From Flavisolibacter nicotianae (GTDB lineage Bacteria; Bacteroidota; Bacteroidia; Chitinophagales; Chitinophagaceae), in NCBI RefSeq assembly GCF_003628535.1, contig NZ_RBCI01000004.1, positions 186,001-250,000 of the forward strand: a stretch of DNA of 64,000 nt, read 5' to 3'. The stretch's first letter is position 1. Each line of letters begins with the position of its first letter. The translations under genes and the position numbers were made by a program. The notes below the pieces were generated by a model. It worked only from the letters and a program-made list of their open reading frames with translations, searched no databases and had not been told where the DNA came from. This document shows, piece after piece, positions 44,439 to 64,000 of this stretch.

Positions 44439-45794
44439 CTAAAGATCATATTTGCTCAGCCGCCGGTAAAGGGCTGTCCGTGTAATGCCCAATTCCTTTG
44501 CCGCTTTGGATATATTGCCGTTGTTTTTTTCGATGACTTTGAGGATGGTGTTTTTTTCAATCGCACTCAGGTTCGACTGCTCCACTTCATCCACTTCCAC
44601 CAGCGCCGACTCGATTGGAGAGAAAAGGATATCTCTCGCCGTCAGCTCGTTGCCATCAGCCATGATCACGGCCCTTTCGATGGCATATTGCAGCTCGCGA
44701 ACGTTGCCGGGATAGTGGTACCCCAACAGCTTTTCTTTGGCCGATTTGTCAAGCTCCATTTCCGGCTTCAGGTATTTGGCCCGGTAGATCTTGATAAAAT
44801 GGTTGGCAAGCAGTAAAATGTCGCTGCCCCGTTTCCGCAACGGCGGCACCACGATCTCCACGGTGTTGATCCGGTAGATCAGGTCCTTGCGAAACCGGCT
44901 CTCGTTGGCCAGCTCTGAGAGTGGCAGGTTGGTGGCGCAGATCAGGCGGATGTCGATGGGAACTGGCTCGTTGCTTCCCAACCGGGTCACCTGACGGTTT
45001 TGCAGAACGCTTAACAATTTCGCCTGCTGGTGAAGGGAAATATTGCCGATTTCGTCAAGGAACAGGGTGCCGGTATTGGCCGACTCAAACCGGCCGGCGC
45101 GGTCTTCCCGGGCATCGGTAAAGGCGCCTTTTTTGTGGCCGAACAATTCGCTCTCGAAAAGCGAATCGGTCAGCGCACCCACGTCGACTTTGATGAACGG
45201 TTTTGTCACCCGCAACGAAAACTGGTGAATGGCCTTTGCGATCAGTTCCTTGCCGGTGCCGTTTTCGCCCAGGATCAAAATATTGGCATCCGTCGGTGCG
45301 ATCTTCTGGATCTTGTAAAAAATATCCTGCATGACCTCCGACTCACCCAACAGCTCTTTTTCAAAAATCGACGTACCCGAAGGTGGCGCTACGCTGCCCT
45401 TGCTTTCTTTCTGGCGCACAGCTTCCTTGATGGTGGCAATCAGCTTTTCATTATGCCAGGGCTTGACGATAAAATCAAACGCACCTTCTTTCAGCGAGCG
45501 GATGGCGAGGTCGATATCGCCATAAGCCGTGATCATGATGACATTGGCAGACGAACGGAACTCCTTGATTTTTTTCAGCCAGAAGATGCCTTCATTGCCC
45601 GTATTGATCGAGCTGTTGAAGTTCATATCGAGCAGGATCACGTCAAAATCCTGTTTGGCCAGGATGGAACGGATGTTCTCCGGGTTTTTTTCGGTCACGA
45701 TTTGTTTGACCTCGGGTTTAAGGAGCAGGCGAACGGCGGTCAGCACATCAACATCGTCGTCAATTACCAGGATCGAAGCAGTTTTTAAAGACAT
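44439..45794 (-). CDS. NtrC-type sigma-54-dependent response regulator
   Basis: A 451-residue regulator with receiver (phospho-acceptor Asp56 in VILLDMNFN, Lys111 in VKPW), AAA+ domain and Fis-type HTH. Walker A is GENGTGKE (176-183), Walker B LFLDEIG (244-250), and the sigma-54 contact loop reads GAFTDA (223-228) instead of GAFTGA. The C-terminal HTH is GNISKAAKELGITRTALYRR. It is divergent from the adaptor/ATPase/permease locus, with a half-site array in the gap, which makes that locus the likely target. The GAFTDA form occurs in other family members. Confidence 0.94.
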   Translation of the reverse strand: MSLKTASILVIDDDVDVLTAVRLLLKPEVKQIVTEKNPENIRSILAKQDFDVILLDMNFNSSINTGNEGIFWLKKIKEFRSSANVIMITAYGDIDLAIRSLKEGAFDFIVKPWHNEKLIATIKEAVRQKESKGSVAPPSGTSIFEKELLGESEVMQDIFYKIQKIAPTDANILILGENGTGKELIAKAIHQFSLRVTKPFIKVDVGALTDSLFESELFGHKKGAFTDAREDRAGRFESANTGTLFLDEIGNISLHQQAKLLSVLQNRQVTRLGSNEPVPIDIRLICATNLPLSELANESRFRKDLIYRINTVEIVVPPLRKRGSDILLLANHFIKIYRAKYLKPEMELDKSAKEKLLGYHYPGNVRELQYAIERAVIMADGNELTARDILFSPIESALVEVDEVEQSNLSAIEKNTILKVIEKNNGNISKAAKELGITRTALYRRLSKYDL

Positions 45795-45890: not shown

Positions 45891-45939
45891 CACTGTATCG
45901 AAAGCGGACAGTTTTTGTCCGCATGCGAACACTTTCGTA
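45891..45939 (+). promoter_or_regulatory. Permease-associated upstream box and half-site array, copy 1
   Basis: CACTGTATCGAAAGCGGACA (45891-45910) continues into TGTCCG (45916-45921) and CGAACA (45926-45931), then TCGTA. The hexamers CGGACA, TGTCCG and CGAACA alternate in orientation at 11 and 10 bp spacing, i.e. on one helix face. GCGGACA-GTTTT-TGTCCGC is a perfect 7-bp inverted repeat. The array lies between the NtrC-type gene and the adaptor gene and is a good candidate activator site. Confidence 0.65.
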
Positions 45940-45983: not shown

Positions 45984-46000
45984 TTGGCATCCTATTTCTT
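45984..46000 (+). promoter_or_regulatory. Weak sigma-54-like promoter before the adaptor gene
   Basis: TTGGCA at 45984-45989 matches the -24 element, but the -12 position reads TTTCTT rather than TTGCA/T. It lies about 60 nt after the half-site array and 30 nt before the GTG start, a sensible position, yet the -12 mismatch leaves it doubtful. Confidence 0.25.
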
Positions 46001-46029: not shown

Positions 46030-47283
46030 GTGGACAGAGTTATCGAAAAAAAACGCTGGAACAGCAAAAAAACATTCACCCTTGTTGGCGTAACGGCGCT
46101 GGTGCTGCTGATTGGCGGCAGCATTTACTACACCTCGGGCAAATCAAAATTGAACGTCGAGTCCGAACGCATCACAATCAGTGAAGTGAAAAAGGGCGCC
46201 TTCCAGGAATTTATTCCTGTCAACGGCGTTGTTCTGCCACAAACCACCATCTACCTCGATGCGGTGGAAGGAGGCCGGGTAGAAGAAAAATACGTGGAGG
46301 ATGGAGCAATGGTGAGCAAAGGCCAGCCCATTCTCCGGTTGTCCAACACCGATCTCGAACTAAGCCTCGTGAACCAGCAGACGGCCGTGTATAACCTGCT
46401 CACGCAAATGCAGATTGCGAAAAACGCTGCCCAGCAAAACACCACGCAAAAGCTCAACCAGAAAACCGATGTGGAAAACGCCTACAAAGAAGCCAAGCGG
46501 GTGTATGACCTGAACAAATACCTGTACGAACAAAAAGCCATTGGCCTGCAGGAATTCAAACAGGCGGAGAACACATTCAATTACCAGGTGGCGCGGATGA
46601 AGCTGACCGACGAGATCCTGAAACAGGATGCGACGTCGAATGTGCAACAGGTATCGCAGGCTGCGCAGTCGGCGAAGGGTTCGCAAAACGCCCTGAACGT
46701 GATGCGGAAAAAAGTGGGCGACCTCATTGTCCGGGCACCGGTTGCGGGCCAGTTAACCTCGCTGGATGTGGAGATCGGCCAGAGCAAAAACAAAGGCGAA
46801 CGCCTCGGCCAGATCGATATCATCAGTGGCTACAAGGTGCGGGTGGACATTGACGAGCACTATATCTCCCGTGTGTTCATTGGCCTGATGGGCGAAGCCA
46901 CAGTAGCCAACCAGAATTACAAATTGAAGATCACGAAGGTTTATACACAGGTGACCAATGGCCGTTTCCAGGTGGACATGCTGTTTGACGGAAAAGTGCC
47001 GGATGGGATCCGCCGCGGGCAAACCCTCCAGATCCGCCTGGCGCTGAGCGACGAAACACAAGCCCTGCTTCTGAACAAAGGCGGCTTTTTCCAGCAAACC
47101 GGCGGCAACTGGGTCTACAAAGTGAGTTCGGACGGCAATACGGCTTACAAAGTCGACGTTCAATTGGGACGGCAGAACCCCGACTACTACGAAGTGCTGA
47201 GTGGTTTGCAGCCAGGGGATAAGGTCGTTACATCCAGTTATGAGAATTACGGTAACATGCAGGAATTGGTGATCAAGAAATAG
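46030..47283 (+). CDS. HlyD/MacA-type periplasmic adaptor
   Basis: A 417-residue membrane-fusion protein. One N-terminal helix (about 17-35) is followed by a beta segment, a lipoyl half-motif (VEEKYVEDGAMVSKGQPILRL style), a coiled-coil hairpin of about 115-230 (LVNQQTAVYNLLTQMQ, LKQDATSNVQQVSQAAQSAK), the second lipoyl half (LIVRAPVAGQLTSLDVEIGQ), then beta-barrel and membrane-proximal domains (GGNWVYKVSSDGN). It bridges a MacB-type pump to an outer-membrane channel. The start is GTG at 46030. It is the first gene of the export locus; no TolC-like gene is in view. Confidence 0.9.
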   Translation: MDRVIEKKRWNSKKTFTLVGVTALVLLIGGSIYYTSGKSKLNVESERITISEVKKGAFQEFIPVNGVVLPQTTIYLDAVEGGRVEEKYVEDGAMVSKGQPILRLSNTDLELSLVNQQTAVYNLLTQMQIAKNAAQQNTTQKLNQKTDVENAYKEAKRVYDLNKYLYEQKAIGLQEFKQAENTFNYQVARMKLTDEILKQDATSNVQQVSQAAQSAKGSQNALNVMRKKVGDLIVRAPVAGQLTSLDVEIGQSKNKGERLGQIDIISGYKVRVDIDEHYISRVFIGLMGEATVANQNYKLKITKVYTQVTNGRFQVDMLFDGKVPDGIRRGQTLQIRLALSDETQALLLNKGGFFQQTGGNWVYKVSSDGNTAYKVDVQLGRQNPDYYEVLSGLQPGDKVVTSSYENYGNMQELVIKK

Positions 47284-47284
47284 A

Positions 47285-47314
47285 AGTCGGCTATCAGCTA
47301 TCAGCCTTCAGCTT
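47285..47314 (+). repeat. Microrepeat GGCTATCAGCTATCAGC
   Basis: Tandem CTATCAG units directly after the adaptor stop. Similar short repeats occur between several permease genes. Confidence 0.45.
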
Positions 47315-47428
47315 TTGTGCATAGCGATGTAACATTTTTCGGTTCAGTATCGTCTCTTCTAACAGTTTTATAAAAAAAGTTCGTTCAATAGCTAAGTCAG
47401 ACAACCGTTCATCACAAAATCAACAGTT

Positions 47429-47575
47429 ATGAAACTCTTACTTCTGATGTTTGTTTTTCTTTGCCTGCATACAACTACGCCGGTGAAAGGAACCAAAAAA
47501 GCAGGACCTGCTCTCAGGAAAGAAGCAAAAGCGTCGTTCCATCTTGCGCCATCAATTTTGATTGTCAACTTTTAA
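47429..47575 (+). CDS. Possible 48-residue secreted peptide
   Basis: An ATG-initiated frame sits between adaptor and ATPase. It starts with a basic residue and a strongly hydrophobic core (KLLLLMFVFLCLH), like a signal peptide, followed by a basic segment (GTKKAGPALRKEAKA) and a hydrophobic end (PSILIVNF). The position inside the operon gives it some support. It is short and unrecognised, so it may be fortuitous. Confidence 0.35.
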   Translation: MKLLLLMFVFLCLHTTTPVKGTKKAGPALRKEAKASFHLAPSILIVNF

Positions 47576-47625
47576 CGCTGAAAGTGACAGTCGATAATCA
47601 ACCAATCAGCCATCAATCAACACTT

Positions 47626-48303
47626 ATGATAAAGATTCGAAACATGGAAAAAATCTACCGTACCGAAGAAGTGGAAACGGTAGCCCTCAACAAACTGAAT
47701 CTCGATGTAAAGGAAGGAGAGTTCGTCGCCGTGATGGGCCCTTCGGGCTGCGGCAAATCCACGCTGCTCAACATCCTGGGTTTACTCGACGAACCCGATA
47801 GCGGAAGCTTTCTTTTCAACGGGATTGAAGTGGCCAAATACAACGAACGCAAACGGGCCGATTTGCGCAAACGCAACATCGGGTTCGTTTTCCAGAGTTT
47901 CAACCTGATTGATGAACTGACCGTCTTTGAAAATGTGGAACTGCCCCTGATCTACCTGGGCGTAACGGCCGCAGACCGCAAAACCAGGGTAGAAGACGTG
48001 TTGGACAAAATGCAGATCATGCACCGCCGCAATCACTACCCGCAACAGCTTTCGGGTGGCCAGCAACAGCGTGTGGCGGTTGCCAGGGCGGTGGTCAACA
48101 AACCCAAACTGATCCTCGCAGATGAACCGACCGGTAACCTCGATTCTTCCAACGGCAACGAGGTAATGCAACTCCTGACGGACCTGAACGAACAAGGAAC
48201 CACGATCATAATGGTGACACACTCCGAGCACGATGCCCGCTACAGTCATCGCATCGTACGCATGCTCGACGGACAAACGGTCCTGGAAAATATCATGGTG
48301 TAA
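47626..48303 (+). CDS. MacB/LolD-type ABC transporter ATPase
   Basis: A 225-residue ATPase. Walker [10 protein letters not shown] (38-46), Q-loop Gln90 ([12 protein letters not shown]), signature [14 protein letters not shown] (142-155), Walker B LILADEP (162-168) and the H-loop His in [11 protein letters not shown] are all intact. The [19 protein letters not shown] start is typical of MacB/LolD-type ATPases that act with FtsX-fold permeases. The ATG at 47626 is used; the longer frame from 47461 includes non-family sequence. It is the only ATPase gene seen for at least seven permeases. Confidence 0.95.
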
Positions 48304-48372
48304 ACTTGTTTGAAAAGGGAAGACTGCACAAGAAACAACCGAGAAGAATTTCTTTCCGCTCAAACACAATTT

Positions 48373-50796
48373 ATGTTCCGCAACTATTTGAAAATTGCCT
48401 TGCGCAATTTGAGGAAGTACAAGGCGATTTCCTTTATTAACCTTTTTGGCCTGACGGTAGGGCTCACCTGCTGCCTGTTGATCCTGGCGTATATTTTAAA
48501 TGAGCTGAGTTACGACCGTTATAAAAATGCGAAAAACATTTATCGCGTTGAGCGCACCTTCCTGAACCCGCAGGACAAGACAGTGAACCTTCGCCTGGCG
48601 GCCATCGCGCCTCCTTTTGGATCCCTGTTGCAAACTGATTTCAAAGAAATCAAAAAGCTGACACAGGTTTTGTCGAATGGACCAACGCCGTTCCGGTTCG
48701 AGGAAAAAATGTTCAGCGAATCCAACTCGTATTTCAGCGACGGAAATCTGCTCGACCTATTTGATGTCAAGGTTCTAAAAGGCAACCCGGCCAGGGCGCT
48801 GGAAGAGCCCAATTCGGTCATGCTCACGGAAGAAACGGCCCAAAAATATTTTGGCAACGACGACCCTGTGAACAAAGTAATCCGGATGAACAACCAGTTT
48901 GATCTAAAGGTGACTGGCGTGTACAAGGCTTTCCCGTCCAATTCGCACCTTCACCCCGAGTTGCTGATTTCGTTCCCGACCTTGATGGACAGTGCGGTTT
49001 ACGGCAAACAGAATTTCGTGGACAATTTCGGCAATAATGCCTTTTACACCTATATTCTCCTGCCGGAGCATTACGATCCCAGGCGCCTGGAGGCACAATT
49101 GCCGGCTTTCCAAAACAGGCACATTCCGCCGGACAACAACGGTTTGATCAAAGCTTCGGATTATTCCCTGCTCACACTGCGCAAGGTGACCGACATTCAC
49201 TTGCTGTCGCACAAAGACGATGAGGCCGAGGAAAACGGCGATATCAAACGGGTGTATATCTTCTCGGCGATTGCTCTTTTTATTTTGCTGATTGCCTGCA
49301 TCAATTACATGAATCTTTCCACGGCCCGCTCTGTCCTGCGTGCAAAGGAAATCGGAATCCGCAAAGTGGTTGGCGCACGAAAGGCCGAATTGATCGGGCA
49401 ATTTTTAAGCGAGTCGGTTTTACTCTGTTGGCTGGCCGCCATTCTTTCTTACGTCTGCACCTGGCTTGCACTGCCTTATTTAAACAAGCTGTCGGGACAG
49501 AACCTTTCCATCAACCAGCTTTTACATTGGTCGGTCTTGCTTCCGCTTGTCCTGGTCCCCTTTGTTGTTGGCATTTTCTCGGGCCTTTACCCGGCGCTTT
49601 TTCTTTCTTCTTTCCAGCCCATCAAAGTGTTGAAAGGCTTGTTGAAAGTTGGCGGTGGCAATGTGTCGTTTCGCAAAGTGCTGGTGGTGGTGCAGTTTGC
49701 CATTTCCATCATCCTGATCATCAGTACGGCAATCGTGTTTAAGCAGATGCGGTTCATGCAAAACAAATCGCTTGGCTTTAACCGCGATCACATTGTAACG
49801 CTGGCTTACAACGACGGCCTGACGGAGCAGTACAACGCTTTTAGGTTCGAACTGCTTTCCAATCCGAACATCAAAAACATATCCCGCTCCTCACGCATAC
49901 CCACAGGGCGCTTGCTGGATGCCATGGGGTCGCAGATCAATAAGGGCGATAGCCTTGCACCGACACAGGCCGATATCAAATTTGTTGTGGCAGATGAAGA
50001 TTACCTCGCGACCTACGGCGTAAAAATGATCGCCGGCAGAGGCCTTTCAAGAGACTACGGTACCGACACGTCTTCGTTCCTGGTCAACGAAGCGGCTGTG
50101 CGTGTTTTGGGATTGCAATCACCGCAGGATGCTGTGGGCAAACAATTTCTGTATGGCGGAAGAAAAGGCCAGTTGGTCGGGGTATTTAATGACTTCCATT
50201 TCGAATCCATGCATCAACGAATCCTGCCGCTGGTGATGTTCATCCCGAAAAATGCAAAAAACTACGGCAGCCTGACGGTAAAGCTATCCGGCAACACGCA
50301 GGGTGCTATGGCTCATCTGGAAAGCACCTGGAAAAAGTTTTTACCGCATATCCCGTTCGACTATACATTCCTCGATGACCGGTTTGCCAAATTGTATCAG
50401 TCCGAAGAGCGGCAGCGCTCCATCTTTACCACGTTTGCCGCTATTGCCATTTTCATCGCCTGCCTGGGTTTGTTTGGCTTGTCTGCATTCACCATCAGCC
50501 AGCGCTTCAAGGAAATCGGTATCCGCAAGGTACTTGGAGCCGACGTGAGCACCATCGTCACGCTGTTGTCGAAAGATTTTCTAAAACTTGTCGGCGTCTC
50601 CGCCCTGATTGCGTTTCCTGCCGCCTGGTATTTCATACACAAATGGCTGGATGATTTTGCCTACCGCATCAACATGCCCTGGTGGCTTTTCCTGGTGGCA
50701 GCGCTGCTTGCCGGTGTGATTGCCTTTGTGACCATCGCCTCGCAGGCGGTGAAAGCAGCAACGGCCAACCCGGTAAAAAGTCTGCGGACAGAATAG
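48373..50796 (+). CDS. FtsX/MacB-like permease 1 of the tandem array
   Basis: An 807-residue, 8-TM protein made of two MacB_PCD-FtsX halves. It opens MFRNYLKIALRNLRKYK. TM1 is near 20-42, the first periplasmic domain about 45-280, TM2-4 about 285-425, TM5 about 435-455, the second periplasmic domain to about 670, then TM6-8. The coupling-helix motif occurs twice: KEIGIRKVVGA near residue 325 and KEIGIRKVLGA near 713. The end is NPVKSLRTE. The ATG at 48373, not the frame start at 48310, gives the family N-terminus. It lies 69 nt after the ATPase gene. Confidence 0.93.
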   Translation: MFRNYLKIALRNLRKYKAISFINLFGLTVGLTCCLLILAYILNELSYDRYKNAKNIYRVERTFLNPQDKTVNLRLAAIAPPFGSLLQTDFKEIKKLTQVLSNGPTPFRFEEKMFSESNSYFSDGNLLDLFDVKVLKGNPARALEEPNSVMLTEETAQKYFGNDDPVNKVIRMNNQFDLKVTGVYKAFPSNSHLHPELLISFPTLMDSAVYGKQNFVDNFGNNAFYTYILLPEHYDPRRLEAQLPAFQNRHIPPDNNGLIKASDYSLLTLRKVTDIHLLSHKDDEAEENGDIKRVYIFSAIALFILLIACINYMNLSTARSVLRAKEIGIRKVVGARKAELIGQFLSESVLLCWLAAILSYVCTWLALPYLNKLSGQNLSINQLLHWSVLLPLVLVPFVVGIFSGLYPALFLSSFQPIKVLKGLLKVGGGNVSFRKVLVVVQFAISIILIISTAIVFKQMRFMQNKSLGFNRDHIVTLAYNDGLTEQYNAFRFELLSNPNIKNISRSSRIPTGRLLDAMGSQINKGDSLAPTQADIKFVVADEDYLATYGVKMIAGRGLSRDYGTDTSSFLVNEAAVRVLGLQSPQDAVGKQFLYGGRKGQLVGVFNDFHFESMHQRILPLVMFIPKNAKNYGSLTVKLSGNTQGAMAHLESTWKKFLPHIPFDYTFLDDRFAKLYQSEERQRSIFTTFAAIAIFIACLGLFGLSAFTISQRFKEIGIRKVLGADVSTIVTLLSKDFLKLVGVSALIAFPAAWYFIHKWLDDFAYRINMPWWLFLVAALLAGVIAFVTIASQAVKAATANPVKSLRTE

Positions 50797-50802
50797 ATAT
50801 TT

Positions 50803-50827
50803 TGAATGATCAATGATGAATAGTGTT
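50803..50827 (+). repeat. Microrepeat between permeases 1 and 2
   Basis: TGAATGATCAATGATGAATAGTG is a degenerate run of the GGTGAATAGTGAA-type repeat in the 81-nt gap. Confidence 0.4.
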
Positions 50828-50877
50828 TCCGGACCAATCAAAATTTTTCATTCCACATTCAGCATTAAAAAACAATC

Positions 50878-53301
50878 ATGTTTCGGAATTATCTAAAACT
50901 AGCCTGGCGGAATTTGGGAAAGCACAAAGTCGATACGGCCATTAACCTGGTTGGTTTGTGCGTGGCCTTTACAGCGGCCTTGCTGCTTTTTCTAAGCGTA
51001 TTTTTTGAATTTTCATACGACAACTTTCATGAGAATGGGAAGCAGCTTTATCATGTGTACACCAAAGTTTACCGCGTAAACGGTGTACAAAATTCCTCCA
51101 CGGTGCCGGTCCCGATGATACCCGCCTTGAAAGAAAGCTATCCGGAAATTCAGTACGCCAGCCGGTATGTTTCCAAGAACGGGAATGTGCGCTATATGGA
51201 AAAACAGCTCACGCAGAACCTGCGGATCACCGATCCTGATTTTTTCCGCATGTTCTCTTTTCCCTTCCTGAAAGGTTCGCCGCAAACAGCGCTCAACGAT
51301 TTGAACAGTCTTGTGCTGACAAGGAAATCGGCAGCAGCAATCTTCGGCAAGGAGGAAGATCCGATCGGAAAAATTGTGCAGATGCAGGTTGGCAGCCAGT
51401 GGAAGCCTTTTACCGTGACAGGGGTCACGGCCGACATTCCCGAAAACTCAAGTATCACGTTCGACATGGTTGGCCGTTTCGAGACCGACGAGAACTACAA
51501 CGCCAGGATAAATGACTGGGAAAGCTGGAATCACAATGCCTATGTGCAATTGAAACAAGGGGCTTCCCCGGATGCGCTGGTGAAAAAAACGGCCGCGTTT
51601 TTTGACCAATATTTTAAGGAAGACTACAATGGCCTGAAGCGGGACGGCGCCAAACCGGCTGCGGATGGCTCCTACATCCAGTTAGGGCTTTTACCGCTGA
51701 AGGATATGCATACCGAAACAGCGATGCTCGTAGAAGGCGGCAATGTTAGCCGGAGTTATTTATACCTTCTGCTGGCCATCGGTGTGCTGATCCTGCTCAT
51801 TGCATGCATTAATTTTATCAATCTTACCATCGGCCGTTCCTTTACCCGTTCACACGAAATCGGCCTGCGCAAAACCCTGGGCGCCTTGCGCGGACAGATC
51901 ATTGCGCAATTGTGGGTGGAGGCCTTGTTGATTTGCTTTTTTGCCCTGGTCGTGAGTGGTGTTCTTTCCTATATTTTGCTGCCGCCCTACAAACAGTTGT
52001 TTGCTTTGCACGTAGAGCGGGACGTACTTTTTTCACCGGTTGTTTGGGCCGGCGTGCTGGCCGGTTTTTTCCTGATTACCCTGGTAGCCGGTGGCTACCC
52101 GGCCTGGCTGATTTCAAGGGTCAACATCGTCAGCATTCTCAAAGGAAAATTTTCCATCGCACGGTCGCAAGGCATCCGGAACACACTGATTGTTGTGCAG
52201 TTTTCCATAGCCGTCCTGCTGCTGATCTGTACAATTATTTCCTGGCAGCAGATCGATTACCTCCGAAACAAGCCGCTTGGTTACAATCGGGCCCAGGTGA
52301 TCTCTGTTCCGGTCGAAGGCGACCAGGACCCGGCGCTGGTGCTGGAAAGGCTTCGAGAAAAATTATCCGGTTATCCAACCATCAAAAGCATCAGCGGCAT
52401 TTACAACAATCTTGGCCGCGGGTTGGATGGGTCCTCTCGTCATTCCACTGTTGGTTTTGATTACAAGAACCGCGGCATCTCTACGGGCTGGCTTGGTGTG
52501 AGCTATGATTTTGTAAAGACACTTGACCTGCAGTTGGTGGCCGGCCGTGATTTCTCCCGTGACTTTCCCACTGATAGCAACGCCATGGTCATCAACGAAG
52601 CCATGGCCAGACAACTGGAGGAAAAAAATGTGATAGGGTTGCAACTGCTGGCAAGAGACAGCGCCCATCCAGTAACCGTCATCGGCGTGGTGAAGGATTT
52701 CAACTACGAGTCATTACAAAAGAAAATCGAGCCAATGAGCTTTGTGCTGGAAAAGGATTTCCCGGCTCACTATGCACTGGTCAAAGTGGCTTCGGCCAAC
52801 CTGCCGGCCAGCATGGAGCTGGTAAAAAATACCTGGAAGCAAATTCTTCCCAACAGCGATTTCAAAGGCTCCTTCCTCGATGAGAACATTGATCGCCAAT
52901 ATAAAAAAGAAGAAAAGCTTTCCCAGATTTTTGTTTCCTGCGCCGTGATTGCCATCGTGCTTTCCTGTCTGGGATTACTGGCCATGGTGATCCTGATCGT
53001 GACACAAAAGATCAAGGAAATCGGTATCCGCAAAGTATTGGGTGCATCGGTCGGCAATATTGTGTTCCTCGTGTCGAAAGAGTTTTTCTGGCTGGTGGCC
53101 ATTGCCATCATCATCGCCTCGCCGCTGGCCTGGTTTGGCATGCAAAAATGGCTCGACAACTTCGCCTACCGCATCAGCATCGCCTGGTGGGTGTTTGTGC
53201 TGGCCGGTTTGCTGGCCTTCGTGGTGGCGCTTTGTACCATTAGTATCCAGGCCATTAAGGCGGCCACGGCCAACCCGGTGAAGAGCCTGCGAACGGAATA
53301 A
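50878..53301 (+). CDS. FtsX/MacB-like permease 2
   Basis: An 807-residue paralogue with the same duplicated 8-TM layout. N-terminus MFRNYLKLAWRNLGKHK. The first coupling motif is the divergent HEIGLRKTLGALRGQ (near 326), the second KEIGIRKVLGASVGN (near 714), and it ends NPVKSLRTE. The first half reads ACINFINLTIGRSF where most copies read NLSTARS, so the first half has drifted. It is separated from permeases 1 and 3 by repeat-bearing gaps of 81 and 68 nt. Confidence 0.93.
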   Translation: MFRNYLKLAWRNLGKHKVDTAINLVGLCVAFTAALLLFLSVFFEFSYDNFHENGKQLYHVYTKVYRVNGVQNSSTVPVPMIPALKESYPEIQYASRYVSKNGNVRYMEKQLTQNLRITDPDFFRMFSFPFLKGSPQTALNDLNSLVLTRKSAAAIFGKEEDPIGKIVQMQVGSQWKPFTVTGVTADIPENSSITFDMVGRFETDENYNARINDWESWNHNAYVQLKQGASPDALVKKTAAFFDQYFKEDYNGLKRDGAKPAADGSYIQLGLLPLKDMHTETAMLVEGGNVSRSYLYLLLAIGVLILLIACINFINLTIGRSFTRSHEIGLRKTLGALRGQIIAQLWVEALLICFFALVVSGVLSYILLPPYKQLFALHVERDVLFSPVVWAGVLAGFFLITLVAGGYPAWLISRVNIVSILKGKFSIARSQGIRNTLIVVQFSIAVLLLICTIISWQQIDYLRNKPLGYNRAQVISVPVEGDQDPALVLERLREKLSGYPTIKSISGIYNNLGRGLDGSSRHSTVGFDYKNRGISTGWLGVSYDFVKTLDLQLVAGRDFSRDFPTDSNAMVINEAMARQLEEKNVIGLQLLARDSAHPVTVIGVVKDFNYESLQKKIEPMSFVLEKDFPAHYALVKVASANLPASMELVKNTWKQILPNSDFKGSFLDENIDRQYKKEEKLSQIFVSCAVIAIVLSCLGLLAMVILIVTQKIKEIGIRKVLGASVGNIVFLVSKEFFWLVAIAIIIASPLAWFGMQKWLDNFAYRISIAWWVFVLAGLLAFVVALCTISIQAIKAATANPVKSLRTE

Positions 53302-53303
53302 AG

Positions 53304-53327
53304 TAGTGAATGGTGAATAGTGAATAA
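53304..53327 (+). repeat. Microrepeat between permeases 2 and 3
   Basis: TAGTGAATGGTGAATAGTGA and the next bases are tandem GTGAATG/ATAGTGAA units. It is the clearest copy of this repeat family in the window and begins right after the stop codon. Confidence 0.6.
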
Positions 53328-53369
53328 ACGACGTTTAATAATCAATCATCAGTAATTAATAACCGACAC

Positions 53370-55820: not shown

Positions 55821-55825
55821 AGAGT

Positions 55826-55852
55826 TGATCGGTGAGTTGTGAACGGTGAGTG
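55826..55852 (+). repeat. Microrepeat between permeases 3 and 4
   Basis: TGATCGGTGAGTTGTGAACG continuing GTGAGTGG is a variant of the GGTGAATAGTGAA repeat, in the 72-nt gap. Confidence 0.45.
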
Positions 55853-55892
55853 GACGTAAACCAACAGTCATTACGAATTTAAACGCTTACAA

Positions 55893-58256
55893 ATGTTCCG
55901 CAACTATTTCAAAATTGCCGTTCGTAACCTGCTTCGGCATAAAGGGTTTTCCTTTATCAACATCTCCGGCCTGGCGGTGGGTATGGCCAGTGCTGTTCTC
56001 ATTATCCTGTGGATACTGAGCGAGGTGCACTACGACGACTTCCATGAAAAAAAAGCCCGCATTTACCAGGTATGGAACAAGGCAACCTTCAGCGGCAAGC
56101 TACAGTGCTGGAACACCACGCCCAAGGTGCTGGCCAAATACGTGCAGCAGGATGTGCCCGAAATAGAACAGGCTACCCGCGCCGAATGGCCCAACAACTA
56201 CCTGCTGACCTACCTTGAAAAACGATTGAAGTCACAGGGCAATATTGTTGATTCCAATTTCCTGCAGGTCTTTAGCTTTCCGCTGCTGCAGGGCAATCCC
56301 AAATCGGTGCTGATGGATATGCACTCGATGGTGGTAACGGAAACGCTGGCAAAAAAACTGTTTGGCGACGATAACCCCGTTGGAAAAATTGTCAAGCTTG
56401 ACAACAAGGAGAACTTTACCGTTACCGGTGTGTTGAAAGATATCCCAACCAACACACGCTTCAAGTTTGAATTCCTCCTGCCATGGTCTTACCTGCGTAG
56501 GAACGGCAACGATGATGAATACTGGGGCAACAACTCCGTGTCCAACTTTGTGCTCCTGAAAGAGAACGCGACCATTGATGCGGCCAATAATAAGATTAAA
56601 AAAATTAAGGTCCGTTACGACAAAACGGAAGACCCTTCCTGGGAAATGTTTCTTTACCCGATGAGCCGCTGGCGCCTCTATGGCAATTTCACCAATGGAG
56701 TAGAAGAGGGTGGTCGCATCACCTTCGTACAACTTTTTGGGATCATTGCGGCATTCATCCTGTTGATTGCCTGTATCAACTTTATGAACTTGAGTACGGC
56801 ACGCAGCGAAAAACGGGCAAGGGAAGTGGGCATCCGCAAAGTGGTGGGGGCCCGCAAAGGCGCACTAGTGGTTCAGTTCATTGGCGAGTCCATCTTGCTT
56901 TCGCTGATCGCCGGCGTCATTGCCCTTCTTCTTGTGCAGGTCAGCCTTCCGGGTTTCAACAGCCTGACCGATAAAAAGCTGTCCATCCCTTACGGTAGTT
57001 GGGAGTTCTGGCTGGCAAGCCTTGCCTTCGTGCTGCTCACCGGCTTGGTCGCCGGAAGTTACCCGGCCTTTTTTCTTTCGTCTTTCCGCCCCGTGAAAGT
57101 GCTGAAGGGGACCATCAAAACAACCAATGCATTCATCACGCCCCGAAAGGTATTGGTGGTGCTGCAGTTCACGTTTGCCATCATTCTGATCATCTGCACC
57201 ATAATCGTAAAACAACAGATTGATTATGCCAGGGACCGCGAAACAGGCTACAACAAAAACAACCTGGTTTATCACTTCCTCGACGGTGACCTGGACAAAA
57301 ACTACCAGCTGGTAAAAACCGAACTGCTGTCATCCGGCATTGCCACCTCTGTGACCAAAACCAGTGCGCCGCTGACGCAGGGCTGGAGCGATAGCTGGGG
57401 CTTCCAGTGGGAAGGCAAAGACCCGAACGATAAAACAGACTTTGACCGCTTTTGTTCCGACGAAGGACTGGCCAAAACAGCCGGCCTTCAGTTTGTTGCC
57501 GGTCGCGATTTTAACCTGCAGCAATTCCCAACCGATTCCACGGGTATTATCATCAACGAGTCGGCGGCCAAAGTGATGAATTTTAAAGACCCGCTGGGAC
57601 AGATCGTCAAAGACAACGGCATCGACTGGCACATCGTGGGGGTGATCAAAGACTTTATCCTCCAATCGCCGTTTTATCCCACCAAGCCCATGGTCATCGA
57701 AGGCAGCAAAGGGTTTTTCAATTGCATCCACATCAAGCTGAACGAGGCCCGTTCAACGGCCGATAACCTGGCAAAGGCCGAAGCGATTTTTAAAAAATAC
57801 AATCCCGAGTTCCCGTTCATTTACAAGTTTGTGGACGAGGAATACGCGAAGAAATTCGACAACGAAAAGCGGACAGCTACGCTGGCGGCACTTTTTGCCG
57901 CCCTCACAATCTTTATTTCCTGTTTGGGCCTGTTTGGCCTGGCGGCCTACATGGCGGAAAACCGGGTCAAGGAAATCGGCATCCGCAAGGTATTAGGCGC
58001 CTCGGTTGGCGGCATCACCACGCTGCCGTCCAAAGACTTTTTAAAGCTGGTGATTGTTTCCATCCTGATCGCCTCGCCAATTGCCTGGTGGGCCATGTAC
58101 AAATGGCTGCAGGATTATCCTTACCGTGTCGAGATCCGGTGGTGGGTGTTTGTGGCTGCTGGCCTCACGTCCATCCTTATTGCCATCGGCACCGTTAGCT
58201 ACCAGTCGGTCAGGGCAGCGATTGCCAACCCTGTGAAAAACCTGCGATCAGAATAA
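55893..58256 (+). CDS. FtsX/MacB-like permease 4
   Basis: The shortest complete copy, 787 residues, from a smaller first periplasmic domain. Its N-terminus (MFRNYFKIAVRNLLRHKGFS) is almost that of permease 5 (MFRNYFKTAIRNLLRYKGFS), suggesting a close duplication. Coupling motifs are REVGIRKVVGARKGA (near 311) and KEIGIRKVLGASVGG (near 693); it ends NPVKNLRSE. A Pro (TTLPSKDF) replaces the usual LLSKDF, an odd change inside the last helices. It runs into permease 5 after only 11 nt. Confidence 0.93.
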   Translation: MFRNYFKIAVRNLLRHKGFSFINISGLAVGMASAVLIILWILSEVHYDDFHEKKARIYQVWNKATFSGKLQCWNTTPKVLAKYVQQDVPEIEQATRAEWPNNYLLTYLEKRLKSQGNIVDSNFLQVFSFPLLQGNPKSVLMDMHSMVVTETLAKKLFGDDNPVGKIVKLDNKENFTVTGVLKDIPTNTRFKFEFLLPWSYLRRNGNDDEYWGNNSVSNFVLLKENATIDAANNKIKKIKVRYDKTEDPSWEMFLYPMSRWRLYGNFTNGVEEGGRITFVQLFGIIAAFILLIACINFMNLSTARSEKRAREVGIRKVVGARKGALVVQFIGESILLSLIAGVIALLLVQVSLPGFNSLTDKKLSIPYGSWEFWLASLAFVLLTGLVAGSYPAFFLSSFRPVKVLKGTIKTTNAFITPRKVLVVLQFTFAIILIICTIIVKQQIDYARDRETGYNKNNLVYHFLDGDLDKNYQLVKTELLSSGIATSVTKTSAPLTQGWSDSWGFQWEGKDPNDKTDFDRFCSDEGLAKTAGLQFVAGRDFNLQQFPTDSTGIIINESAAKVMNFKDPLGQIVKDNGIDWHIVGVIKDFILQSPFYPTKPMVIEGSKGFFNCIHIKLNEARSTADNLAKAEAIFKKYNPEFPFIYKFVDEEYAKKFDNEKRTATLAALFAALTIFISCLGLFGLAAYMAENRVKEIGIRKVLGASVGGITTLPSKDFLKLVIVSILIASPIAWWAMYKWLQDYPYRVEIRWWVFVAAGLTSILIAIGTVSYQSVRAAIANPVKNLRSE

Positions 58257-58267
58257 AAACACCAACC

Positions 58268-60685
58268 ATGTTCAGGAACTACTTTAAAACCGCTATCCGC
58301 AATCTGCTCCGCTACAAAGGCTTTAGCTTTATCAACATCCTGAGCCTGGCCATTGGCATCACGGGCTGCCTCGTGATAGCGCTTTTTGTATACGACGAAA
58401 AAAAGTTTGACAAGGGCATACCCGGCGGAGAAAATGTGTACCGTCTTTACGACGAATATGTCGACAATGGCAATCGTCGTTTGCAGGCACCGGTGCCGCC
58501 GGCTTATGCAACGTTTTTGCAGCAGCAATATCCGGAGGTAGACACAACCGTGCGGATTTTAATGTCCGGCGACAAGTTCCTCATGGAAGTGGGAGAGAAA
58601 AGCGGTTACGAAGAAAAAGGAATTTTCACGGAAGCCTCTTTTTTCAAAATTTTCCCGCTGAAATTTTTATTCGGCGATCCTGCCACAGCACTCACGGCTC
58701 CCGGCACGATCGTATTGACGGAAGACCTGGCCAAACGTTATTTCGGCAACCTGAACCCCGTTGGTAAAACGCTCAAGATCGACAAAGGCGACTTTGAAGT
58801 AAAAGGCGTACTGGCAAAACTTCCGGAACATTTTCACCTGGATTTTCATTACCTGATGTCGCTTTCTTCTGCCGGTATTCCCAAAGAAAGGATGGAGAAG
58901 TGGACCTGGAACCAGTTCTATACCTACGTCAAACTAAAACCCGGCGCCGATGCCAGGTTGGTACAGGACAAATTCCAGGCGCATGTGAAAAAGGAAATTT
59001 ACCCGACGCTGAAACAGGAAGGCAGCGTCTTTTTGCCTTTCTTTCAGCCACTGCACGACATTCACCTTAAGTCGGCGGATTTTGTGTTCGACAATGCCGT
59101 TAGGGGTAATGAAAGCTATGTGACCGGTCTGACCATCATTGCCCTCTTTGTGTTGGTAATTGCCTGTTTCAATTTCATCAACCTGGCAACGGCCCGTTCT
59201 TTCCGCAGAGCAAAGGAAATCGGCGTTCGTAAAGTGGTGGGTGCCGGCCGTAAACAGCTTGTGGTACAGTATATGGGCGAAACCGTTTTGCTTTCGGTGA
59301 TCGCCATGCTGATTGCCATTGTTGCCACGATACTGCTTTTACCAGCATTGAATGGCTTCACAGGAAAGCACATTTTATTTAACCCTGTCACCAATCCGCT
59401 GCTGGCTCTGCTGGTCCTTGGTGGCGGCGTGCTGATTGGCATTTTAGCAGGCATTTACCCGGCGCTGGTGCTCTCGGGTTTTCAGCCCATCAAAGTCTTG
59501 AAGAACATGAAGCTCGCGGGCAGCGATGTTGGCTGGCTGCGGCAGGCCCTGGTGGTCGTGCAGTTTGCACTTTCCGCCTTGCTGATTGTTTCTTCGCTGG
59601 TCGTGTACAAACAAATCCAGTATCTCAATACCAAAGACCTTGGCTTCAACAAGGACCAGGTGCTTTATTTCCAGATTCGCGGCGATGTGGAGAAAAACCT
59701 GGAGACGTTCAAGCAGGCGTTGAAGCAATCCTCCGGCGTCGTATCCGTAACATCGGGTTATGGCCTGCCCGGCGACCAGTTTGCCGGTGATGGTGTGACG
59801 GTCCCGGGAAAAGAAGGCGACAAAGAATACGCTGCCAATGTGTTTATCGGCGATCCCGATTACCTGAAAACCCTTGGCCTGAAACTGGTTGCAGGCCGTG
59901 ATTTCTCCAGCGAAATGAAGACCGATGAACGGGAGGCCTTTATCATCAATGAAACAGCCGTAAAAGAACTGGGCTTTGGCACACCGCAAAAAGCCCTGGG
60001 GCAAACGTTGAAGTGGGATGAATGGAATCCTGTCGACTCGCTTCATCCGCAGAAGATCGGCAAGGTGATTGGCGTGGTGCAGGACTTTCATTACAAAAAC
60101 CTGCACGAAAAGGTGACGACTTCGGTGATCCAGCTTTATCCTGCAGTTACCTACAAAGTGGCCGTAAAACTTAGGACGGCTGATATGAAAAATACCATTG
60201 CCTACATCAACGATACCTGGAACAAATTCAACCCGGGATTTCCGCTTGATTACAAGTTCATGGATGAAACCTATGGCGCCATGTACAAGTCCGAAGAAAA
60301 GCTGGGAAGCCTGATCTGGATCTTCACGCTCATGGCGATTGTTGTGGGTTGTTTAGGCCTGTTTGCACTGGCCGCTTTCAATGCCGAGCAACGAACAAAG
60401 GAGATTGGCATACGCAAAGTATTGGGTGCCGGAGTGCTCAGCATTTTTGGTTTGCTGTCGAAAAGCTTTGTTCGCCTGGTGCTGCTTTCGTCGTTGCTGG
60501 CTTTCCCCGTGGCCTGGTGGGCCATGAACAAATGGCTGGCCGATTTTTCGTACCGCATTGCCATTGGCTGGTGGGTGTTCGTGGTGGCAGGTGCGGCCGC
60601 ACTGACGGTTGCGCTGATCACGGTTAGTTTCCAGGCCATTCGGGCCGCGGTGGCCAACCCGGTGAAAAGTTTACGAACCGAATAA
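58268..60685 (+). CDS. FtsX/MacB-like permease 5
   Basis: An 805-residue copy. The first coupling motif is KEIGVRKVVGAGRKQ (near 317), the second KEIGIRKVLGAGVLS (near 712); the tail is NPVKSLRTE. TM1 contains INILSLAIGITGCLVIALFV. The periplasmic domains contain RIFTE-type early segments but are diverged from permease 4 apart from the N-terminus. It sits 11 nt after permease 4 and 10 nt before permease 6 with no repeats, so these three are tightly co-transcribed. Confidence 0.93.
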   Translation: MFRNYFKTAIRNLLRYKGFSFINILSLAIGITGCLVIALFVYDEKKFDKGIPGGENVYRLYDEYVDNGNRRLQAPVPPAYATFLQQQYPEVDTTVRILMSGDKFLMEVGEKSGYEEKGIFTEASFFKIFPLKFLFGDPATALTAPGTIVLTEDLAKRYFGNLNPVGKTLKIDKGDFEVKGVLAKLPEHFHLDFHYLMSLSSAGIPKERMEKWTWNQFYTYVKLKPGADARLVQDKFQAHVKKEIYPTLKQEGSVFLPFFQPLHDIHLKSADFVFDNAVRGNESYVTGLTIIALFVLVIACFNFINLATARSFRRAKEIGVRKVVGAGRKQLVVQYMGETVLLSVIAMLIAIVATILLLPALNGFTGKHILFNPVTNPLLALLVLGGGVLIGILAGIYPALVLSGFQPIKVLKNMKLAGSDVGWLRQALVVVQFALSALLIVSSLVVYKQIQYLNTKDLGFNKDQVLYFQIRGDVEKNLETFKQALKQSSGVVSVTSGYGLPGDQFAGDGVTVPGKEGDKEYAANVFIGDPDYLKTLGLKLVAGRDFSSEMKTDEREAFIINETAVKELGFGTPQKALGQTLKWDEWNPVDSLHPQKIGKVIGVVQDFHYKNLHEKVTTSVIQLYPAVTYKVAVKLRTADMKNTIAYINDTWNKFNPGFPLDYKFMDETYGAMYKSEEKLGSLIWIFTLMAIVVGCLGLFALAAFNAEQRTKEIGIRKVLGAGVLSIFGLLSKSFVRLVLLSSLLAFPVAWWAMNKWLADFSYRIAIGWWVFVVAGAAALTVALITVSFQAIRAAVANPVKSLRTE

Positions 60686-60695
60686 ACAAAACGAT

Positions 60696-63119
60696 ATGTT
60701 CAGAAACTACTTCAAAACAGCCTGGCGAAACATTACGCGGCAAAAAGGCTACTCGTTGATAAACGTCATCGGTTTGGCAATCGGTGTGGCTGCCTGTCTT
60801 TTGATCCTGCAATATGTGTCCTTCGAATTGAGCTATGAAAATTTCCAGGTGAACAAGGATCGTATTTACCGGGTAAAGCAGGACAGGTATGACAATGGCA
60901 AACTCAGTACCGAGTGGGCGGCGGGTGCCTACGCTGTTGGTAATTCGTTCAAGGAGGAAATACCGGAAATCGAGGACTATGTAAAACTGCTTTCTAAAAA
61001 CGCCGCGATTGCTGAAATCAACCATCAACCGGTGCAGATAAAGAAGGTGTTTTTTGCCAGCGGTTCTTTCTTTCGCGTCTTCACTTATCCTGTGATAGCC
61101 GGTGATGGCAACAAGGCATTGACCGAACCATTCACAGCGGCTCTGTCTGAAACAACAGCCCGGACACTGTATGGTACCACTGATGTAATTGGCAAACGCC
61201 TTAGCCTGAACCGCAACAGCGATTACACTGTGACAGCCGTGTACAAGGATGCTCCGGCCAATACGCAGGTCAAGCCTGACATCCTGCTTTCCTATGCCAC
61301 CTTTGTCAAGCGCACGACCGATTCCACCGGCAAGGGACCTGAAACAGCCTGGTTGTGGGATGGCTGCCTGACTTATCTTTTGTTACGGAAAGGTGCAGAT
61401 CCCCGTGCCGTTGAAAAAAAGTTTCAGCCGATTGTGGACAAGTTCACTGCAGCCGACATGAAGAAATACAATTCTGCCGTGACGTATTCTTTGCAGCCGC
61501 TCGCCGATATCCACCTGTACTCGCACTACATGGGAGAGCCGGAACCGAACGGTGATGGCAAGACGGTCTACCTGTTGTTGGGCATTGCGTTTTTTATCGT
61601 GGTGATCGCCTGGATCAATTACATCAATCTGGCCACCGCCCGTGCCATCAACCGGGCAAAGGAAGTGGGTATTCGGAAAACAGTCGGTTCGCAACGCAGC
61701 CAGTTAATTTTCCAGTTTCTTTCTGAATCGGCCTTGCTGAATGCGTTTGCATTGTTGCTGGCGTTCGTCATTGTCGTCGTTGCCATTCCCGGCTTCAACC
61801 AACTTTCGGGTCAGCATCTTTCTTTTTCATTCCTCGTGAAGTCTGATTTTTGGGTTGGCCTGATAGCTTTGTTTATTGTCGGTACGTTCTTTTCGGGATT
61901 GTATCCTGCCTTTGTTTTGTCCGGTTTCAAACCGATCGACGTGTTGAAAGGAAAAATGACCACCACATCCAAGGGTTCTGTGCTGAGGAAAGGGTTGGTA
62001 GTGTTTCAGTTTACGGCCTCCCTCTTTTTATTGATCGGCACACTGGCTGTTTATCAGCAAATCCAATACATGCGCAAGCAGTCGTTGGGTATAAACATCG
62101 ATCAAACCCTGGTGGTAAATCGTCCGGTGGTACTGACGGATTCCACCTATCTGCGAAACATGACGGCATTGAAGGAAGCGCTAAGCCAGCAGACATCCGT
62201 TAAAGGTGTCACCATCTCAACCAGTATTCCCGGCGAACCGGTGGATTGGAATGCTGGAGGGATAAAGCTGGTTGGTACCGACGAATCGACACAAAAGCAA
62301 TACCGCGTTATTGGCGTGGATTACGATTACCTGAAATTGTACGGCATAAAACTTATTGCCGGTCGTCCCTTTTCCAAAGATTACGGCAGTGATGACCATG
62401 CCGTTATTTTCACGAAAAAGGGGTTTGAGCAATTGGGTTTGGCGAAACCGGAAGATGCCGTGGGGAAAAAGATTGATTTTTGGGGCGAGCAGTTCACGAT
62501 CGTAGGTATCGCAGATAATTTCCACCAGCAATCCTTGCGGGAAGATTTCGAGCCGCTGATCTTTCGCTTGATCCCGGATGTGCAGGGTTTCCTGTCAATT
62601 AAAACACCGGCATCGAAAGCCAGCCAAACCATCGAAAACGTAAGAGCAGCCTGGAATCAATTTTTCCCCGGAAACACGTTTGAATATTTTTTTCTCGATG
62701 ATCATTTCGACGAGCAGTACAAGGCCGATCAAAAGTTCGGACAGGTATTCGGGCTGTTTACTTCACTTGCCATCCTCGTTGCTTGTTTGGGCTTGTTCGG
62801 TCTTGCCTCGTTCACCACGATTCAGCGCACAAAAGAGATCGGCATCCGCAAAGTACTGGGAGCTTCCGTTCCGCAGATCCTGAAATTGTTGTACCAGGAA
62901 TTTGCGTCGCTACTTGCCATTGCATTTGTTTTAGCAGTGCCATTGGCATGGTATGTCGTTTTGAGTTGGTTGCAAGGCTATGCCTTCCGAATTGATATCC
63001 ATTGGTCTTACTTCATGATCCCGTTTGTGGCCATCTTTATCATTGCGTTTCTAACTGTAAGTTATCAGTCGATGAAAGCGGCGTTATCAAATCCGGTCAA
63101 GAGTTTACGAACCGAGTAA
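60696..63119 (+). CDS. FtsX/MacB-like permease 6
   Basis: An 807-residue copy starting MFRNYFKTAWRNITRQKGYS. Coupling motifs are KEVGIRKTVGSQRSQ (near 322) and KEIGIRKVLGASVPQ (near 713). The first-half motif reads AWINYINLATARAINRA, with Trp where most copies have Cys (ACINF). It ends NPVKSLRTE. The gene is 10 nt after permease 5 and is followed by a 386-nt gap with another regulatory box. Confidence 0.93.
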   Translation: MFRNYFKTAWRNITRQKGYSLINVIGLAIGVAACLLILQYVSFELSYENFQVNKDRIYRVKQDRYDNGKLSTEWAAGAYAVGNSFKEEIPEIEDYVKLLSKNAAIAEINHQPVQIKKVFFASGSFFRVFTYPVIAGDGNKALTEPFTAALSETTARTLYGTTDVIGKRLSLNRNSDYTVTAVYKDAPANTQVKPDILLSYATFVKRTTDSTGKGPETAWLWDGCLTYLLLRKGADPRAVEKKFQPIVDKFTAADMKKYNSAVTYSLQPLADIHLYSHYMGEPEPNGDGKTVYLLLGIAFFIVVIAWINYINLATARAINRAKEVGIRKTVGSQRSQLIFQFLSESALLNAFALLLAFVIVVVAIPGFNQLSGQHLSFSFLVKSDFWVGLIALFIVGTFFSGLYPAFVLSGFKPIDVLKGKMTTTSKGSVLRKGLVVFQFTASLFLLIGTLAVYQQIQYMRKQSLGINIDQTLVVNRPVVLTDSTYLRNMTALKEALSQQTSVKGVTISTSIPGEPVDWNAGGIKLVGTDESTQKQYRVIGVDYDYLKLYGIKLIAGRPFSKDYGSDDHAVIFTKKGFEQLGLAKPEDAVGKKIDFWGEQFTIVGIADNFHQQSLREDFEPLIFRLIPDVQGFLSIKTPASKASQTIENVRAAWNQFFPGNTFEYFFLDDHFDEQYKADQKFGQVFGLFTSLAILVACLGLFGLASFTTIQRTKEIGIRKVLGASVPQILKLLYQEFASLLAIAFVLAVPLAWYVVLSWLQGYAFRIDIHWSYFMIPFVAIFIIAFLTVSYQSMKAALSNPVKSLRTE

Positions 63120-63505
63120 AGATGGCTCCTGGATCGAAAACCTGCAGCTAAAAAGCTGTATCGAAAACGGACAGTTTTGTGCGAATACGAACAGGGTCGT
63201 AAGCGAACAGGATAAGTAAGTATTTGCTTCCCAGTTTCTTGTGGAAGTGGTACAATTGTTCGGTTTCAAAACGGGTGTTTGCATAGACAGCAATATCGAT
63301 TGTGTCGCTGATCGCTGCAAAGCAACACGCATCAAACCGAAACATTTTTCATGCTGTTCAACTTCGTAAATACGGCCTCGTGTCAAAAGGTAAAAGCGCA
63401 CCATCATGCCGTTGTTGTTATGTTGAAAATTTCAAAGCCGTGCTTACATGGAAAAAATGCTGGAAACAGCAGGCAGAGGAAAAATGAAAACATAAAACCG
63501 TGTTT
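63120..63505. other. Long gap between permeases 6 and 7 with second regulatory box
   Basis: No gene is supported. The gap is much longer than those inside the array and contains the 63156-63201 box. Short minus-strand frames here carry no recognisable domain. Confidence 0.6.
63156..63201 (+). promoter_or_regulatory. Permease-associated upstream box and half-site array, copy 2
   Basis: CTGTATCGAAAACGGACA (63156-63173) differs by one base from copy 1 over 18 nt. It continues into TGTGCG (63178-63183) and CGAACA (63188-63193), both 10 bp apart, then NNN-TCGTA as in copy 1. It is 305 nt upstream of permease 7, which suggests a second promoter. Confidence 0.6.
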
Positions 63506-64000
63506 ATGTTGAAAAACTTTTTTACGGTCGCCTGGAGAAATCTGGCGAAGCACAAGATTTTCTCCTTCATCAATATCATCGGCCTTGCCTCCGGCCTGGC
63601 CTGCTTTATTTTGATCGCCATGTACGTGGCGGATGAACTCAGCTACGACCGCTTCAACGAAAAGGCCGACCGCATCTACCGGGTCAATTCCGACGTGTTG
63701 TTTGGTGGCAACAACCTGCGGCTTGCCGTCTGCTCCGATCCGATGGGTGCCACCTTGAAGAAAGACTATCCGCAGGTGGAAGAATTTGTCCGGTTTTACA
63801 ACTCCGACGGTTACCGGATGGTAAAGAAAGGAAATGAATACCTGCGGGAAAACAATGTTGCCCGTGCCGACTCAACGCTGTTCAATGTGTTTACCCTTCC
63901 GGCTATCGCCGGCAATACAAAGACCGCCTTGAATGAACCCAACACGGTTGTGCTGACAGAGTCAACGGCGAAGAAATACTTTGGAACAACAGACGTGGTG
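63506..64000 (+). CDS. FtsX/MacB-like permease 7 (3' end outside window)
   Basis: The first 165 codons of another array member. N-terminus MLKNFFTVAWRNLAKHKIFS, TM1 NIIGLASGLACFILIAMYVA, then DELSYDRFNEKADRIYRVNS, the family's usual periplasmic opening, and NEPNTVVLTESTAKKYFG. It is cut by the window edge. Its own upstream box and long leader suggest it may head a second transcription unit. Confidence 0.9.
   Translation, partial: MLKNFFTVAWRNLAKHKIFSFINIIGLASGLACFILIAMYVADELSYDRFNEKADRIYRVNSDVLFGGNNLRLAVCSDPMGATLKKDYPQVEEFVRFYNSDGYRMVKKGNEYLRENNVARADSTLFNVFTLPAIAGNTKTALNEPNTVVLTESTAKKYFGTTDVV

Follow-up and report, generated by a model that had tools for sequence, protein, structure and literature searches.

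The cassette described here probably encodes a modular type VII (MacB/FtsX-class) ABC exporter, in which a fixed and regulated core with common ATPases would serve interchangeable duplicated permeases coordinated by a 17-bp dyad. The layout of the cassette, its recurrence in other genomes, the dyad common to its parts, and the docking motifs kept by its permeases are read directly in the DNA, and the pseudo-dimeric fold of the permeases comes from a predicted model.

Gene Content and Layout of the Locus

The window, i.e., the whole stretch of 64,000 nucleotides that was analyzed, is C24:186001-250000 of a 6.09-Mb assembly whose nearest named relatives, as judged by the ATPase, are Flavisolibacter longurius and other Chitinophagaceae. 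The genes reported by an initial annotation of the window were all found at the positions listed in Table 1, including the kinase/NtrC pair on the minus strand and, on the plus strand, an adaptor, an ATPase (ATP1), and seven consecutive permease ORFs with the same starts, six of which are complete and the seventh cut by the window edge. The annotation also held that the array continues beyond this edge. When read past it, the locus indeed has twelve permeases in all (P1 to P12), after which come another ATPase gene (ATP2) and a gene for a TolC-type channel, all on the plus strand. Since extending the sequence reveals ATP2 after P12, the single ATPase proposed initially has to be corrected to two, which flank the array. 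The broader proposal, that a single regulated core goes with many duplicated permeases that have diversified, stands, except that the array is not the whole set: three more duplicated permeases, one in the window and two elsewhere in the genome (C5:126231-128630 and C55:160554-162959), carry the control motif described below.

P1 to P6, which are complete in the window, all have MacB_PCD and FtsX Pfam domains, together with ADOP and DarB NCBIfam matches that are below the curated cut-offs. The TolC-type gene scores above the cut-off of the OEP Pfam model and below that of the TolC model.

Several smaller features were seen as well. P9 (C24:254527-256862) has a frameshift near its 5' end that splits the ORF, and the Flavihumibacter permease that is its best relative is intact; the frameshift may mark a real pseudogene or an assembly error. 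The gaps between permeases at 50797-50877 and 53302-53369 contain short degenerate repeats of the form GTGAATAGTGAATA, which were spotted by eye and are under the threshold of a tandem repeat search that gave one row, outside the locus. The longest ORF in the first 43 kb of the window, on the minus strand at 24751-27813, has 1020 aa.

Table 1. Features of the locus (window positions unless preceded by C24)
Feature	Position	Strand	Remarks
Orphan duplicated permease outside the array	36750-39200	-	Identified by Pfam; nearest tree row is a Terrimonas cassette permease
Two tandem UAS copies before the orphan permease	39296-39333	-	21 bp apart; one exact, one with a mismatch
Sensor histidine kinase, 446 aa	43011-44351	-	HATPase_c; top NCBIfam matches AtoS/PnpS, under their cut-offs
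NtrC-type response regulator	44439-45794	-	REC, AAA+, Fis-type HTH; GAFTDA replacing GAFTGA
17-bp dyad (UAS) 5' of the adaptor	45894-45910	+	Also before the adaptor in 16/16 closed cassettes
TGGCAT, -24-like element	45985-45990	+	74 bases 3' of the UAS
HlyD/MacA-type periplasmic adaptor (MFP)	46030-47283	+	RND_mfp above cut-off, DarC below cut-off
ATPase 1 (ATP1)	47461-48303	+	ABC_tran; DarD/LolD/FtsE/MacB-type matches; ABC domain from about 47626
Duplicated permease P1	48310-50796	+	Likely start 48373
Duplicated permease P2	50878-53301	+	
Duplicated permease P3	53370-55820	+	
Duplicated permease P4	55893-58256	+	
Duplicated permease P5	58268-60685	+	Structure predicted
Duplicated permease P6	60696-63119	+	
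Internal UAS preceding P7	63157-63173	+	
Duplicated permease P7	63500-64000	+	Cut by the window edge
ATPase 2 (ATP2)	C24:264759-265490		Closes the array; outside the window
Outer-membrane efflux protein, TolC-type	C24:265487-266815		OEP/TolC matches; outside the window

Recurrence of the Cassette in Other Genomes

We searched a public genome set with ATP1 and counted neighboring genes over the best 80 loci (ATPases 74-94% identical; more loci exist). The adaptor precedes ATP1 in 78 of these 80 loci and a permease follows it in 76; the other four comprise two contig ends, one locus in which ATP1 is immediately followed by an ATP2-type gene, and one that lacks a permease within 10 kb. A regulator is found beside the adaptor in 67/80 loci, with a kinase beside it in 66 of the 67. 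The same layout thus recurs in Chitinophagaceae and beyond, in a gene-order comparison that the initial annotation had suggested, and its recurrence in the 80 fetched loci shows that the arrangement is not due to chance. One locus (L057), from a public record titled Williamsia (Actinomycetota), carries a typical Bacteroidota cassette, and the record is probably misnamed.

Cassettes were extended for 13 of the 80 loci. In 16 closed cassettes, a non-random set selected for closure by ATP2 (our own, ten of the 13 extended, and five closed within the fetched flank), the core is constant and the number of permeases variable: 12, 11, 10, 6 (four cassettes), 5 (three), 4, 3 (three), 2, and 1. L051, which reaches a contig end, and L065 and L091, in which ATP2 is absent beside the array, were dropped from the extended cassettes. 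L071, closed and with its permeases in pieces, and L037 and L070, with no permease after ATP1, were also excluded.

One relative presents a natural split, in which adaptor-ATP1 has no permease within 10 kb and ATP2-channel is at another place. The same genome has a 39-kb stretch (C1:318001-357000, L132-L133) of tandem permease ORFs, 11 of them full-length and two partial, where we found neither an ATPase of this type nor a dyad. With adaptor-ATP1, ATP2-channel, and the permease array all apart, this relative supports ATPase sharing.

Diversity and Predicted Fold of the Permeases

The 12 array copies of our genome are 31-44% identical to each other (mean 36%, 66 pairs). The 16 cassettes have 88 permeases, and for 85 of these the best match is in another genome's cassette, a figure inflated by close twins (two Flavisolibacter, three Niastella/Longitalea); for our own copies, it is 11/12. 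Judged by their sequences, the array members are old paralogs, and recent tandem duplication, which we had considered, is ruled out by these best matches outside the own array. In the half-domain tree that the initial annotation had proposed, run on the 12 own copies, N and C halves part with 100% SH-aLRT (the program gave a long-branch warning), and this clean separation indicates that the internal duplication predates the paralogs. The idea that the first permease pairs with ATP1 and the last with ATP2 was rejected, array position not being a clade in a FastTree tree: the first and last positions require 9 changes each, values as low being reached in 96 and 80 of 500 shuffles.

At the cytoplasmic loop of both halves, the permeases have a docking motif, E...RK..G. 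In aligned columns, its E and last G are each kept in 88/88 permeases, R in 87 and 88, and K in 88 and 86, for the two halves, whereas a strict pattern finds the motif in both halves of only 69/88. The stretches around the two motifs are the most conserved and the periplasmic stretches the least.

The structure of P5 was predicted by AlphaFold (pLDDT 88.3, pTM 0.82) from an alignment of 84 rows, i.e., 78 of 207 usable permease stretches and six from the window. The model has 4+4 membrane helices, two periplasmic domains, and short cytoplasmic coupling helices at 315-324 and 710-718, one per half. Its best structure match at full length is E. coli YbbP (Z 24.9, 663 residues, rmsd 8.7), with MacB and LolC/E matching half by half. 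As modeled, P5 has the features of type VII ABC permeases, an FtsX-type fold of four helices in which a large periplasmic domain lies between helices one and two. Each permease looks pseudo-dimeric in this predicted model, in line with the initial suggestion that a two-half permease could by itself partner an ATPase dimer.

Probable Sharing of Two ATPases by Many Permeases

Our genome has 15 duplicated permeases vs. six ATPases at least 39% identical to ATP1, one of which is ATP2 (50% identical). Two of the other four adjoin a permease of their own of ~410 aa, and two are without such a permease in the 5 kb fetched around them. An ATPase for each permease elsewhere, which the initial annotation had named as contrary evidence, was looked for in the genome and none was found.

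In 19 relatives, all of which were reached through the ATP1 search and have ATP1 by selection, there is exactly one ATP1-class gene per genome, 88-97% identical to our own, together with at least 9-34 ADOP matches per genome among the matches listed, partial and shorter proteins included. An FtsE-like ATPase is present in 17/19 relatives at 54-90% and a LolD-like one in 19/19 at 56-88%, these names being the best NCBIfam matches, under cut-offs. In the two relatives from other orders, the values are 92% for ATP1, 54% for the FtsE-like ATPase, and 56% for the LolD-like ATPase in Cesiribacter, and 88, 60, and 61% in Mucilaginibacter.

At fourfold-degenerate sites, our ATP1 is 26-50% identical to 15 others, where chance is near 27-34% (three pairs computed). 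Since these sites are largely randomized, strong constraint on ATP1 is likelier than recent transfer, which is mostly ruled out as the reason for its conservation. The exception is Cesiribacter, with 49% identity at these sites vs. 34% by chance, and recent transfer of ATP1 may have taken place between it and our own lineage. A motor obliged to fit many permeases would explain the high conservation of ATP1.

In pairwise comparison, ATP1 sequences are on average 88% identical and ATP2 sequences 77%. In the alignment, ATP2 retains what we take to be the Walker A, signature, Walker B, and H-loop motifs, and its presumed D-loop reads NLN (16 aligned copies and others checked) vs. NLD in 80/80 ATP1. 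We infer that ATP1 and ATP2 are common to the array and the scattered permeases.

A 17-bp Dyad Before Core and Permease Genes

A 17-bp dyad, TGTATCNNAANCGNACA, is located between regulator and adaptor and has a 6-5-6 layout, which we take to resemble NtrC sites. Its position and form suggest that it is bound by this NtrC-type regulator. The 6.1-Mb genome contains six exact dyads, all six at the system: four precede the adaptor, P7, P12, and ATP2, and the remaining two precede scattered permeases. The third of the scattered permeases is preceded by two one-mismatch copies, 21 bp apart, and eight further one-mismatch dyads elsewhere in the genome are at about the control level (9 at one mismatch or fewer). 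When the dyad is combined with the element TGGYAY, there are 6 matches in our genome, all at the system, vs. 0 in the control.

The 19 relatives contain 75 exact dyads vs. 3 for the reversed pattern, and 65 of the 75 precede a permease (38, within 500 bp), an adaptor (19), or ATP2 (8), which often has a dyad of its own. As many as 36 of the 38 permease dyads, in 13 genomes, are outside the cassette, either on another contig or >45 kb from ATP1, a count in which draft assemblies may shift a few. The remaining ten comprise four dyads before a toastrack (DUF4097) gene, one before a small gene and then a permease, and five before other genes, including an esterase and an M61 peptidase. The toastrack calls (L196, L208, L214, and L250) were made by Pfam in three cases and by likeness in the fourth. 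An array permease comes next at two of these four sites, and two Flavisolibacter cassettes have a toastrack gene inside the permease array; in our own array, the gap between P6 and P7 contains the dyad plus 326 bp in which there is no toastrack ORF. The toastrack domain is linked to envelope stress in the accessible text of PMC11237479.

Promoter tables were compiled for 80 sites, leaving out our own C55 and C5 dyads. A second dyad is near 30/80 sites, vs. 0.7 in shuffles, with 28 of 31 distances being 21 or 22 bp. TGGYAY follows the dyad in 57/80 sites, vs. 7 when the opposite strand is read and 9.6 in shuffled sequence. Most of the distances are close to 52 or 74 bases, and TGGYAY looks like a promoter element. 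Sigma-54 promoters have a -24/-12 element of the form GG-N10-GC, and sigma-54 is contacted by the GAFTGA loop of its activators. The element linked to TGGYAY is non-canonical, its TT being one base early and GC absent, and a scan of the adaptor promoter for a canonical sigma-54 element gave counts near shuffle level (at the lowest threshold, 10/68 forward and 9 reverse vs. 6.4). Regulators adjoining the adaptor in relatives (n = 67) have GAFTDA in 63 cases, GSFTGA in 2, GAFTGA in 1, and none in 1. The GAFTDA loop and the missing -12 GC may be departures that go together.

In a sample of 118 genomes of the phylum, eight (our own included) have an ATP1 at least 80% identical, and six of the eight have the exact dyad, which in the five besides our own is 1.4-2.1 kb before ATP1 on the same strand. 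Exact dyads are also scattered in genomes without a close ATP1 (16 dyads in 14 of 110 genomes, vs. 5 for the reversed control in the whole sample), so the dyad alone is no proof of membership outside close relatives. Moreover, in several relatives the ADOP matches greatly outnumber the exact dyads, which, together with the dyad-free 39-kb array, indicates that the regulon as defined leaves some permeases uncovered.

Proposed Mechanism and Alternatives

We infer stress sensing, binding of the dyad by the regulator, ATPase sharing, and export via the adaptor and channel in the following form. The kinase would sense envelope damage or an antimicrobial and activate the NtrC-type regulator, which, acting on phased 17-bp dyads, would switch on core, array, and scattered permeases together. 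A single permease would supply both membrane halves and dock the common ATPases, its own periplasmic domains would select the substrate, and the substrate would exit through the common adaptor and channel. The permease would then be an exchangeable cartridge and the ATPases the common motor.

We are more tentative about a narrower form of this model, which may hold although we lean against it, in which a fixed asymmetric ATP1:ATP2 pair, with adaptor and channel, accepts any permease of a genome-wide, single-chain, pseudo-dimeric pool co-induced via the dyad. If true, many "orphan" duplicated permeases of Bacteroidota would be cartridges of one machine. A serious competitor, to which we give somewhat less than an even chance, is that ATP1 and ATP2 are not partners in one dimer and act as independent homodimeric motors for different permeases. 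ATP2-channel pairs away from ATP1 in two relatives (G005 and G012) and the frequent presence of a separate dyad at ATP2 would fit such motors, whereas the presence of both ATPases even in a one-permease cassette argues against them, as does the D-loop Asn in all ATP2 checked, as opposed to Asp in 80/80 ATP1, which fits an asymmetric pair.

The modular exporter that we favor also has to be weighed against a force-transmitting envelope machine that is no exporter and acts in lipid or lipoprotein extraction or cell-wall control, like YbbAP, LolCDE, and FtsEX. YbbP being the best full-length structural match speaks for such a machine, and so do the toastrack genes after the dyad at four sites, through their tie to envelope stress (PMC11237479, accessible text). 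We nevertheless consider it unlikely because adaptor and TolC-type gene are constant in the 16 closed cassettes (a set picked by ATP2 closure), which suggests a conduit spanning the two membranes. It is quite improbable that the ATPases drive only the one or two permeases beside them, the rest being an ATPase-independent or mostly silent store of paralogs: docking motifs are kept across the 88 array permeases, permeases at the first array position do not form one clade, nor do those at the last, and dyads precede internal and scattered permeases. A store of this kind would nonetheless account for the wide divergence among permease sequences, the frameshift in P9, and cassette L071, an assembly from a metagenome with all permeases in pieces.

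Relation to Known Systems

Duplicated MacB-type permeases are present in dozens of copies in some Bacteroidota, where they are recorded as orphans. The common dyad and the highly conserved ATPase give these permeases a likely partner set and regulator, and the dyad provides a DNA signature with which other genomes can be searched for members. One motor with many cartridges is a testable claim that, if true, would mean that envelope export or stress defense can broaden its range of substrates in a distinct manner. The literature searched, in which few subscription journals and preprints were represented, yielded no account of a permease array of variable size combined with a fixed core that has two ATPases, of a control motif linking array and scattered permeases, or of a common use of these ATPases. 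The initial view of the system as undescribed is only partly borne out, since duplicated permeases whose ATPase is separate are already known (YbbAP and, by NCBIfam name, DarB/DarD) and the permease family has been named ADOP.

The permeases resemble ADOP (TIGR03434), with a full-length match of about 800 aa, two MacB_PCD/FtsX halves, and many copies per genome. However, P1 to P6 score 279-332 bits, below the cut-off of 622.3, which is passed neither in our genome nor in any relative (0/19), and the set described here includes ATPases, adaptor, and channel. To our knowledge, which is drawn from its name and description, the ADOP family is typically without a neighboring ATPase. Two Dyadobacter have 28 and 33 ADOP copies, their function being unknown according to the accessible part of PMC11573002.

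The darobactin exporter DarB/DarC/DarD (NF038008, NF038010, and NF038007) likewise combines, by model names, a duplicated permease, a separate ATPase, and an adaptor, but all three models match under their curated cut-offs here, and our cassettes have 1-12 permeases and two ATPases. In MsiK-type importers, one shared ATPase is considered to serve several transporters; these differ in being sugar importers with another permease type.

E. coli YbbAP-TesA has an internally duplicated type VII permease, YbbP, which binds two ATPase copies via two coupling helices, making a single-chain permease on an ATPase dimer an established arrangement (PMC12646458, accessible text). In the same text, YbbP has 10 membrane helices, in contrast to 4+4 in our model, YbbAP works with TesA, and a permease array is not mentioned. 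With MacAB-TolC, our system shares the adaptor (RND_mfp above cut-off), the MacB-type permease fold, and a gene for a TolC-type channel. In contrast to MacAB-TolC, the ATPase is separate, the permease is duplicated and multiplied, and there is a second ATPase.
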